Source: Phaeobacter inhibens DSM 16374
Lineage (GTDB): Bacteria > Pseudomonadota > Alphaproteobacteria > Rhodobacterales > Rhodobacteraceae
Assembly (NCBI RefSeq): GCF_000473105.1
Contig: NZ_KI421498.1
Span: forward strand, 3,143,009 to 3,207,008
Direction of reading: 5' to 3'
Length of the DNA: 64,000 nucleotides
In this document: positions 58,782-63,803 of the stretch, piece by piece
How positions within the stretch are numbered: position 1 is the stretch's first letter
Layout: each line of letters starts with the position of its first letter
The notes under the pieces: generated by a model
The model's database searches: none
What the model was told of the DNA's origin: nothing
What the model saw: the letters and a program-made list of their open reading frames with translations, nothing else
Position numbers and translations under genes: made by a program

Positions 58782-58795
58782 TTGATACAGATCAA
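58782..58795. promoter_or_regulatory. FnrL box upstream of ccoN
   Basis: TTGATACAGATCAA is a perfect TTGAT-N4-ATCAA FNR site, centred at 58788.5. If it sits at -41.5 the ccoN transcript starts near 58830, about 60 bases before the ATG. Confidence 0.9.
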
Positions 58796-61254: not shown

Positions 61255-61452
61255 ATGGACATTTATACTCTGCTTCGGGAATTCGCCGACAGTTGGATGC
61301 TACTCTTCCTGTTTGTATTCTTCCTGGCCGTGGTGGTCTGGGCGTTTCGCCCGGGCAGCTCCAAGGTCTACAAGGATACTGCCAACATCCCCTTCCGGCA
61401 CGAAGACAAACCCGCCCCAGAAATGGGTAAAGCCAAGGAGGCGCGGTCATGA
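61255..61452 (+). CDS. ccoQ: cbb3 oxidase small subunit CcoQ
   Basis: The 65-residue protein has a single membrane helix ([38 protein letters not shown]). The sequence after the helix is typical of CcoQ, which stabilises the complex. ATG 61255 follows TTGGAGG. Its stop overlaps the ccoP start by four bases. Confidence 0.95.
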
Positions 61453-62318
61453 GCAAGAAAGTGAAGAAGTTCGAGGACGATCCGAATACCACCGGCCACA
61501 GCTGGGACGGGATCGAGGAATTCGACAATCCGATGCCGCGGTGGTGGCTCTGGACCTTCTATGCGACCATTATCTGGGCCATCGGCTATACCGTTGCCTA
61601 TCCCGCCTGGCCGGGGATCCAATCGGCGACGGCTGGTGTGCTGGGCTGGAATTCCAGAGCGCTGGTCGCTGAAGAAATCGCAGCCGTGAATGAGGCCAAC
61701 GCCCCAATCAACAGCCGTTTGGAGGAGATTGAGCTGGCGTCTATTACCACCGATCCCGAGCTGAACGGCTATGCGGTCTCGGCCGGCTCTGCGGTGTTCA
61801 AGACCTGGTGCGCCCAGTGTCACGGCGCTGGCGCGGCTGGGGCGAAAGGCTACCCGAACCTGCTGGATGATGACTGGCTTTGGGGCGGGTCGATGGAGGA
61901 TATCCATGCCACCATTGCCCATGGTATCCGCAACGAAGAGAGCGACGATGCGCGCTACTCGGAGATGCCAGCCTTTGGCCGGGATGAGTTGCTGGAGAAG
62001 GAAGAGATTGATCAGGTTGTGAACTATGTGATGTCTCTTTCGGGTGAGCCTCAGGATGCCGACAAGGTCGCGCCGGGGGCAGTGATCTTCGCGGATAATT
62101 GTGCCTCTTGCCACATGGAAGATGGCACCGGTGACCGCTCTCAGGGCGCGCCGAACCTTGCAGATGCCATTTGGCTCTATGGTGGGGATCACGCGACACT
62201 GACCGAAACCGTTTACAACTCGCGTTACGGGGTCATGCCAAACTGGAACGCGCGGCTGACAGAAGCCCAGATCCGTGCGGTGACCGCCTACGTGCACCAA
62301 TTGGGTGGCGGTGAGTAA
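61449..62318 (+). CDS. ccoP: cbb3-type cytochrome c oxidase subunit III (diheme)
   Basis: The 289-residue protein has an N-terminal membrane helix ([27 protein letters not shown]) and two heme c domains, with [11 protein letters not shown] near residue 121 and CASCHMEDG near 218. It accepts electrons from soluble or anchored cytochromes c. The ATGA overlap with ccoQ indicates coupling. A hairpin terminator ends the operon. Confidence 0.97.
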
Positions 62319-62470: not shown

Positions 62471-63244
62471 ATGCCCGATACCCGTTTCCTTGACATAACT
62501 CCGATGCTCGACAGCAAGGCGCCAGCGATAACAGCGTTGATCTCAGAACGTGGCTGGCAGCGGTTGTCACCTCATGACCGGATCGGCGCAGCCTATGACT
62601 ACGTCCGTGATGAGATCCTGTTTGGCTACAATGTCGCGGACACGCGCCAAGCCTCTCTGGTTCTTGCGGATGGCTATGGTCAGTGCAACACAAAAGCGAC
62701 ATTGCTGATGGCAGTGCTGCGCGCACTTGGTATCCCATGCCGACTGCACGGGTTCACCATAGACAAGAGCCTACAACGCGGAATAGTGCCTGAGCTGGTT
62801 TATTGGATGGCGCCACGCAGCATCCTGCATTCATGGGTCGAGGTTCGTCTGGACGCCCAGTGGATCAATCTTGAGGGGTTCATCCTTGATCAGCAGGTCT
62901 TGGGTTCGTTGCAAGCGGCGTTTCCGGGCCGGACATCGTTATGTGCCTATGGGGCGGGGACCGATTGCCTGCAAGCGCCAATGATCACGTGGCAGGGACG
63001 GGATACTTATATTCAGAGAGCCGGGATCAATGCCGATCTTGGTATTTTCGACAGTCCGGATGCGTTCTTTGGCCAGCATCAGCAGGATCTCACGGGGGTG
63101 CGGGGTCGGCTCTATCGAAACATCATTCGCCATTGGATGAACCGTCGGGTGGCAGCGATCCGGCGCGGGGTTGTGCCGACCTTGCCTGGCGGTGACAAGG
63201 GGCTGAAGCCGGATGTTCCGGATCGGGTGTTCATGGATAGCTAA
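62471..63244 (+). CDS. Transglutaminase-like domain protein
   Basis: The 257-residue protein has a transglutaminase-core pattern. Cys72 lies in GYGQCNTKATLLMAVLRALGIPCRLHGFTI and His120 in SILHSWVEV. The third position reads INLEGF rather than the usual Asp-containing segment. No signal peptide is seen, so it may be cytosolic. Family members cleave or cross-link peptides; the function here is unknown. It lies between the ccoP terminator and ccoG, an insertion into the usual cco gene order, with no FnrL box directly in front. Confidence 0.82.
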   Translation: MPDTRFLDITPMLDSKAPAITALISERGWQRLSPHDRIGAAYDYVRDEILFGYNVADTRQASLVLADGYGQCNTKATLLMAVLRALGIPCRLHGFTIDKSLQRGIVPELVYWMAPRSILHSWVEVRLDAQWINLEGFILDQQVLGSLQAAFPGRTSLCAYGAGTDCLQAPMITWQGRDTYIQRAGINADLGIFDSPDAFFGQHQQDLTGVRGRLYRNIIRHWMNRRVAAIRRGVVPTLPGGDKGLKPDVPDRVFMDS

Positions 63245-63271
63245 AATCGGGGTGCCCTATTTTACGGGTCT

Positions 63272-63313
63272 TTGATCCCTGTCAAATACCCAAGCAGCGT
63301 AACCGGGTAATAT
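63272..63313 (+). promoter_or_regulatory. Class-II FnrL promoter facing a gene-free interval
   Basis: TTGATCCCTGTCAA (63272-63285) fits TTGAY-N4-RTCAA. TAATAT at 63308-63313 lies so that, with transcription starting near 63320, the box is centred at -41.5 and the hexamer at -12 to -7. This is the geometry of FNR-activated promoters. Confidence 0.7.
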
Positions 63314-63319
63314 CCCTTC

Positions 63320-63446
63320 TTGAGACAATGCCATCGGTTCGCCCTTTCCAGCGCTGATGGCTGTCCAGTTCGCTCTCCTGCTTTGCAGGGGCGGACCCGG
63401 CGTCGGCTTTTCGATCTGTTCGCGCGTTTCCTGAAAAGCCGACGCC
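63320..63446 (+). ncRNA. Candidate FnrL-dependent small RNA
   Basis: From the predicted start near 63320 there is no good frame, but GGCGTCGGCTTTTC (63399-63412) and GAAAAGCCGACGCC (63433-63446) form a perfect 14-base-pair stem with a 20-base loop. No T-run follows, so the 3' end is uncertain; the transcript could instead be a long leader for ccoG. Confidence 0.4.
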
Positions 63447-63729
63447 CTGATCCTCCCAGATGGCTGACAGGGCCGATGTGTTCTGGCGAACGTCGCGCTA
63501 CCCAGCGCGCAGCGATCGCGCTACACTCTTCTATAGCGAGAAGGTGGTCTGTAAATAAGCCTGCGCTCTGGTGTCACATCTGCGACGCGGCGACGCGGGG
63601 GTGCTCGTCGCAACAATGTGTAAACGACTGTATTATATGTGTTTATGGCGTGTATTGCGTTTCGGGACAGAATGCCGCGCCCGGTTGACGGCGTCCGAGT
63701 AGGGGCAAAGATGCGTTCTGTATATGCGT

Positions 63730-63743
63730 TTGATCCACGTCAA
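63730..63743. promoter_or_regulatory. FnrL box upstream of ccoG
   Basis: TTGATCCACGTCAA fits TTGAY-N4-RTCAA. Its centre, 63736.5, is 67 bases before the ccoG GTG, placing a start near 63778. Confidence 0.8.
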
Positions 63744-63803
63744 GGTTCGTCCGTGGCGCATCTGGGACAACCGCTGCAACAAAGCAAGATTTGGAGTGAG
63801 TCC

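Follow-up and report, generated by a model that had tools for sequence, protein, structure and literature searches.

A conserved terminator-like hairpin beside the cbb3 oxidase genes of Phaeobacter inhibens as a candidate FnrL-controlled small RNA

Among described RNAs, the one most like the element discussed here is HRC-8-4, which has 160 representatives in the Rhodobacterales (Brewer et al. 2021, RNA Biol.; PMC8632094). According to the main text of that report, HRC-8-4 lies mostly between ccoNOQP and ccoGHIS and consists of a terminator-like stem with a conserved tip, and the LysR gene hvrB is the commonest gene inserted near it, always downstream. Its authors speculate about a riboswitch-like ON switch or binding of HvrB; the main text assigns no function, and the word "FNR" does not occur there. 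The name HRC-8-4 appeared only in this paper in the literature searched, and a search by term through the main text of PMC4809877 and of PMC5107571 turned up no cco-linked small RNA (sRNA). Sources on oxygen-related sRNAs describe FnrS as an FNR-activated sRNA of enterobacteria (PMC8139620, PMC4263372), and PcrZ of Rhodobacter sphaeroides as a low-oxygen RNA of 136 nt that is influenced by PrrA and FnrL and processed to a stable short form (PMC6238624, PMC8139620, PMC10253847, PMC8307010). Further Rhodobacter sRNAs, namely CcsR1-4, SorX and PcrX, are described as 3'UTR-derived or tandem, with CcsR comprising four homologous copies (PMC8307010, PMC6238624).

Here we analyse a stretch of 64,000 nucleotides of P. 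inhibens DNA (the window), at whose 3' end a cbb3 oxidase region runs from ccoNOQP through a transglutaminase-like gene to ccoG (Table 1). An earlier note, made from the letters of this DNA, had proposed an oxygen-controlled transcript with no gene, and the features on which it built are all present: an FnrL box, a TAATAT hexamer at the exact class-II distance (the predicted start at 63320 places the box centre, 63278.5, at -41.5), a perfect 14-bp hairpin, and a second box, 458 nt from the first, that serves ccoG. Together with a box at 58782, before ccoN, these are the three perfect TTGAN6TCAA sites of the window, against 0.81 expected; three or more arise in 4 of 100 shuffles of the window, and a looser pattern with two mismatches occurs 26 times against 22.0 expected, no excess over chance. 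A simple sigma-70 scan of the window did not list the predicted promoter at 63308-63320, an expected outcome because it has no -35 hexamer. The small hairpin just 3' of ccoP was likewise absent from the list of that scan, and an NCBIfam search with the transglutaminase-like gene gave no match. Between the conserved hairpin and ccoG, the block CCTGCGCTCTGGTGTCACATCTGCGACGCGGCGACGCG (63559-63600) is kept in the genus genomes examined and lies 150-161 nt before the ccoG box; its GCGAC repeats are reminiscent of RegA/PrrA sites.

Table 1. Features at the 3' end of the window, in window coordinates
Feature	Position	Strand	Basis
ccoP, final gene of ccoNOQP	61449..62318	+	NCBIfam TIGR00782, E 2.2e-123
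Simple terminator-like hairpin GGGGCTGCC-TTCG-GGCGGCCCC 3' of ccoP, without conserved loop	62353..62374	+	by eye
Transglutaminase-like gene between ccoP and the RNA	62471..63244	+	Pfam PF01841, E 3e-14
FnrL box TTGATCCCTGTCAA, class-II position relative to the predicted RNA	63272..63285	+	perfect TTGAN6TCAA
-10 hexamer TAATAT	63308..63313	+	spacing to box; predicted start 63320
Stem-loop 1 of predicted RNA	63321..63367	+	folding z-score, genus alignment
Stem-loop 2 of predicted RNA	63368..63396	+	folding z-score, genus alignment
Stem-loop 3, terminator-like hairpin with conserved loop (very probably the HRC-8-4 motif)	63399..63446	+	scan, covariation
Near-invariant loop core CTGTTCGCGCGTTTCCT, proposed active sequence	63416..63432	+	conservation in ccoP-anchored loci
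FnrL box TTGATCCACGTCAA of ccoG, 3' of hairpin	63730..63743	+	perfect TTGAN6TCAA

The arms of the hairpin (63399-63412 and 63433-63446) enclose a loop of 20 nt. Upstream of it, the 5' part of the predicted RNA (63320-63397) folds better than chance (z -4.41; 0 of 200 shuffles as good) into stem-loops 1 and 2. Among other genus members the corresponding part folds well in one (z -3.22) and weakly in two (z -1.64 and -1.89), with the pairing mostly preserved across five aligned members. The ORF list has one frame here, of 122 aa from a TTG start (63320-63688), and a small protein read from it, or a RLFDLFARFLKSRR-like reading through the hairpin, would be an alternative to a noncoding RNA. We give it almost no credence: a Pfam search with the 122-aa frame found no match, the four congeners compared (L017, L018, L019, L020) all have stops within the equivalent frame, a start codon is missing in 50-69 of the 134 copies in each of the three frames among the matches listed, and the stem arms covary around a loop that is fixed at every codon position. 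A conserved ORF was therefore rejected as the explanation of the RNA, in line with the earlier view that the interval has no convincing coding frame.

A DNA search found parts of the region in 8 of 41 genomes, comprising all seven members of the genus (one matched by short pieces only, its hairpin being read separately) and one other genus. The loop stretch TGTTCGCGCGTTTCC is identical in all eight, the FNR box begins 141-176 nt before the loop core in each, and compensated stem changes occur in the two most distant of them, a congener (G001) and the representative of the other genus (G011). Both stem conservation and compensatory changes, which the earlier note had named as a check, are thus found in relatives. 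A covariance model (R1) built on the hairpin alone matches 179 of 394 genomes of the family at a cut-off of E 0.01, almost all of different genera, and the hairpin belongs to an RNA found across the family, in which a covarying stem carries the 16-nt, near-invariant loop CTGTTCGCGCGTTTCC. By hand tally from the listings, matches occur in 177 of 355 genomes with ccoP, of which the model at this cut-off overlooks about half, versus 2 of 39 without; one of these two matches is weak and the other lies in a genome that is 73% complete. A class-wide search of 289 genomes, at least four of them from the family, gave four weak matches outside the family, none with TTCGCGCG at that place. In a search of the window's own genome for further copies, the model's second match is this palindrome read from the opposite strand, and two other matches are weak (E 0.19 and 1.65).

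For a wider comparison, named genomes were scanned by the exact loop pattern, which yielded at least 118 stretches; with the earlier loci these make 140 unique instances, 134 of them cco-linked. Loop percentages from the 134-copy set are inflated because the stretches were drawn by that pattern, and one instance at a locus edge was dropped from the hairpin set. The six instances that are not cco-linked comprise, among the matches listed, three chance matches without a stem and three true hairpins. The latter (L084, L087, L125) have good stems and no match to ccoO, ccoP or ccoG in 8 kb each, and may be copies away from cco.

The pairing of the arms, and the strand on which it matters, can be read from these copies. 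Among the matches listed, the 14 stem positions are paired in 86% of cases over 134 copies, versus 38-53% after a shift of one arm by 1-2 nt, and a single position shows up to six pair types. G-U outnumbers A-C by 98 to 4 cells in 96 well-paired instances of the same listing, selected by an even-handed filter, and by 109 to 19 over all 134 listed instances unfiltered. Since these counts come from related, non-independent sequences, the 86 unique stems among the matches listed served as a check and gave 90 versus 4. This excess would be reversed if the opposite strand were the functional one, so the functional molecule is an RNA read in the cco direction. Comparison of sequences thus establishes, at that level, a conserved RNA structure, its strand, its linkage to cco and its wiring to the FnrL box.

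The listed copies fall into two ARRANGEMENTS: class A, adjacent to ccoP and with no box, and class B, with its own box upstream, the class to which the window copy belongs. Class A accounts for 81 of the 134 listed hairpins, all starting within 48-105 nt downstream of ccoP. Scored for a perfect TTGAN6TCAA box in the interval 60-200 nt before the loop, 0 of these 81 and 50 of the 53 other listed copies have one; the three exceptions are a second copy and two copies close to the end of their locus. A check sample of 40 ccoP-anchored stretches was chosen independently of the loop: 37 are about every fourth row of the best ~150 of 355 ccoP-bearing genomes, hence those with the best-scoring ccoP proteins, three were hand-picked, R. 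sphaeroides included, and two of the 40 are shortened by contig ends. The loop core is present with all 16 letters in 26 of the 40 loci and with at least 14 in 31, and these 31 copies divide into 21 of class A (box in 0 of 21) and 10 of class B (box in 10 of 10). Three further loci, R. sphaeroides among them, carry degenerate forms of the hairpin, and six stretches have no element within the DNA examined. An independent promoter, as envisaged by the earlier note, is predicted for the window copy and is the minority arrangement among the copies examined, the hairpin lying mostly right after ccoP (81 versus 50 of 134 listed; 21 versus 10 of 31).

Class B copies look like promoter-bearing units. 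Their boxes lie 84-188 nt upstream of the loop among the matches listed, with a -10 element at class-II spacing. When the 50 listed boxes are aligned, T is found in 28 at offset 36, A in 37 at offset 37, A in 29 at offset 39 and T in 27 at offset 41, a T-A-n-A-n-T preference where a class-II -10 element is expected; 37 of the 50 also have G at offset 34, and an exact TANNNT begins at offset 36 in 8 of 50, versus 0-2 at the other offsets from 15 to 59. With the box present in 50 of 53 listed and 10 of 10 anchored copies away from ccoP, and with this conserved -10, comparison lends support to the earlier proposal of an FnrL-dependent RNA. On a ccoG tree of 71 rows, drawn from the matches listed, the arrangement changes about 9 times, versus 19-21 with shuffled labels, and well supported branches force 6-7 of these changes.

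Copy number varies as well. Two hairpin copies are present in three loci of the 134 instances listed, and L285 (G207:C42:9800-11400) has three tandem hairpins after ccoP that share the loop, each on a different, compensated stem. Each of these tandem hairpins is preceded by a similar stretch, GATCC...CCCCTCCCGG. Inspection by eye of the interval from the ccoP stop to the hairpin in 28 class A loci showed, in the usual case, a short stem-loop rich in GC ahead of the conserved one; an A-rich, AAGAAT-like stretch, which may be a site for RNase E, often comes before this short stem-loop. In the R. sphaeroides-type chromosome (L252) the hairpin after ccoP is degenerate, with the loop CAGTTCGCGCGTTCC, so that in the most thoroughly studied relative it is either decaying or diverging.

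A terminator-like hairpin with a conserved loop could also be an attenuator, a terminator-embedded riboswitch or protein sensor in which a ligand or HvrB holds the loop and opens the terminator for transcription into ccoG or hvrB. The neighbourhood lends this some weight: of the genes tested for, a LysR gene comes first within the next 700 nt in 50 of the 134 listed instances. Against it, where ccoG is present a box separates it from the hairpin in 104 of 107 listed instances, the hairpin persists whether ccoG, LysR or other genes come next and in three tandem copies, and 81 of the 134 listed copies sit right after ccoP while the moved copies carry an FnrL box, which an attenuator of a downstream gene would not need. 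We consider an attenuator unlikely; the box count speaks against control of ccoG by read-through, and a LysR gene downstream might yet be controlled in this way.

The 3' end of the window copy bears on another alternative, in which the distal box of this genome serves only to give ccoG a long leader, of which the hairpin would be a structural part. The sequence directly 3' of the window hairpin, CTGATCCTCC, has no U-run, so that the 3' end is a putative one and transcription may read through towards ccoG, which follows about 357 nt downstream in the same direction. The congener G005, however, has TTTTTTT right after the hairpin at the same locus, and at least four T in an 8-nt stretch after the stem are found in 38 of the 50 box-bearing and 45 of the 81 ccoP-adjacent copies among the matches listed. 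Moreover, ccoG has its own box, here at 63730 as in 104 of 107 listed instances, so it does not need read-through, and the next gene is LysR or another, not ccoG, in 28 of the 50 listed class B copies. A leader of this kind seems to us very improbable.

The reading we favour, and regard as probable on these comparisons, is a trans-acting sRNA under FnrL control that acts through its terminator loop and has two alternative sources, the ccoNOQP 3'UTR and a promoter of its own. FnrL, active at low oxygen, would bind 63272-63285; transcription would start near 63320, and the RNA would end at or soon after the hairpin, giving about 130-140 nt. Relatives may produce the same RNA by this route; the commoner route would be its release, presumably by RNase cleavage, from the 3' end of the ccoNOQP mRNA, which we take to be FnrL-driven as well, as the box before ccoN in the window suggests. 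Seated on a variable stem, the terminator loop of 20 nt with the near-invariant CUGUUCGCGCGUUUCC most likely pairs with target mRNAs, and its UUUCCU half could cover ribosome sites of the AGGAAA type, so that gene expression would be adjusted during the switch to the cbb3 oxidase. We infer the discrete small transcript, the binding of FnrL, the pairing in trans and the identity of any targets.

Searches for such targets were made at several levels. Complements of the loop with up to three mismatches occur at 21 places in the own genome, the RNA itself included, versus 16 for a backward control, none convincing at a start. Across seven congeners, with 29 of 55 places read, no start-site complement stood out for GGAAACGCG before ATG; one GGAAACGCG site recurs in five of the seven and appears internal to a coding sequence. 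Within the cco loci, the search for cis targets yielded just one recurrent site, a weak loop complement near ccoQ, AGGGAATTCGCGGACAGC, which lies between ccoO and ccoP, about 1150-2340 nt before the loop, in the five loci L059, L105, L144, L153 and L158. Exact 13-mer complements in 31 genomes fell on the RNA itself at 16 of 21 places and elsewhere at five, and with the ctaC and hemF leaders of 30 genomes, start codons being roughly placed, the real loop paired no better than shuffled loops did (better in 11 of 30 and 5 of 30). None of these searches, in the own genome, congeners, cco loci, 31 genomes or ctaC/hemF leaders, supported a target.

That outcome would also suit an element of the mRNA 3' end only, a strong terminator and stabiliser of ccoNOQP that presents its loop to an RNA-binding protein or an RNase and has no action in trans. 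Conserved loops can be protein sites, and 81 of the 134 listed copies directly follow ccoP. The 50 listed box-bearing copies at places other than next to ccoP tell against it, since their stems end 67-171 nt after the predicted start, which leaves no mRNA to stabilise, and we hold an exclusively 3'-end role to be decidedly unlikely.

The window hairpin is very probably the HRC-8-4 motif, an assignment that rests on place, taxon and shape, not on the published consensus letters. Like HRC-8-4, it lies between ccoNOQP and ccoGHIS in Rhodobacterales, a taxon read from named records of related loci, has a strong stem whose tip carries conserved nucleotides, and is confined to that order, the 289-genome class search having given no extra-family match with TTCGCGCG. 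It differs in the U-run after the stem, which the window copy does not have; as the wording of PMC8632094 is "generally conforms", this lowers and does not exclude membership. The locus-specific candidate of the earlier note is thus a real element and not a unique one, very probably already published under this name. New relative to PMC8632094 are the two mutually exclusive, box-wired arrangements, the strand test, the tandem copies and the upstream stem-loops.

Homology to PcrZ was rejected. The PcrZ stretch was located on the R. sphaeroides-type chromosome by its published 5' end (PMC6238624), with a PufX match and a -10-like TAATGA in place. It is a different locus, 128 kb from ccoP, and shares no loop with the window RNA; 487 of 500 shuffles align locally as well as the two RNAs do. 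CcsR1-4, SorX and PcrX resemble the element, by description, as sRNAs from the 3' part of an mRNA, and differ from it in their host genes and regulons.

Whether HRC-8-4 is the Rhodobacteraceae counterpart of FnrS, and not a riboswitch, we regard as evenly poised. Such a counterpart would be a family-wide sRNA of the FnrL regulon, with the loop as one fixed targeting sequence, FnrL control kept through repeated moves between 3'UTR and own promoter, and tandem multiplication in some lineages. An orphan motif of an RNA catalogue would then gain a testable function and an inducing condition, and the marine Roseobacter group and its relatives would share a branch of the oxygen response, so far unassigned, that acts after transcription. 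An RNA that keeps its transcription factor while its production route changes between mRNA 3' end and own promoter would, in addition, be an evolutionary test case for 3'UTR-derived sRNAs. In sequence the RNA shows no match to FnrS, as the earlier note had expected: Rfam covariance models gave nothing at gathering threshold on this stretch (best 23.3 bits, for an unrelated family with a cut-off of 40), and the conserved part of the window RNA is, in distinction to FnrS, the terminator loop. What the two would have in common is that the window RNA, too, is probably an FNR-activated, free-standing sRNA for oxygen limitation.
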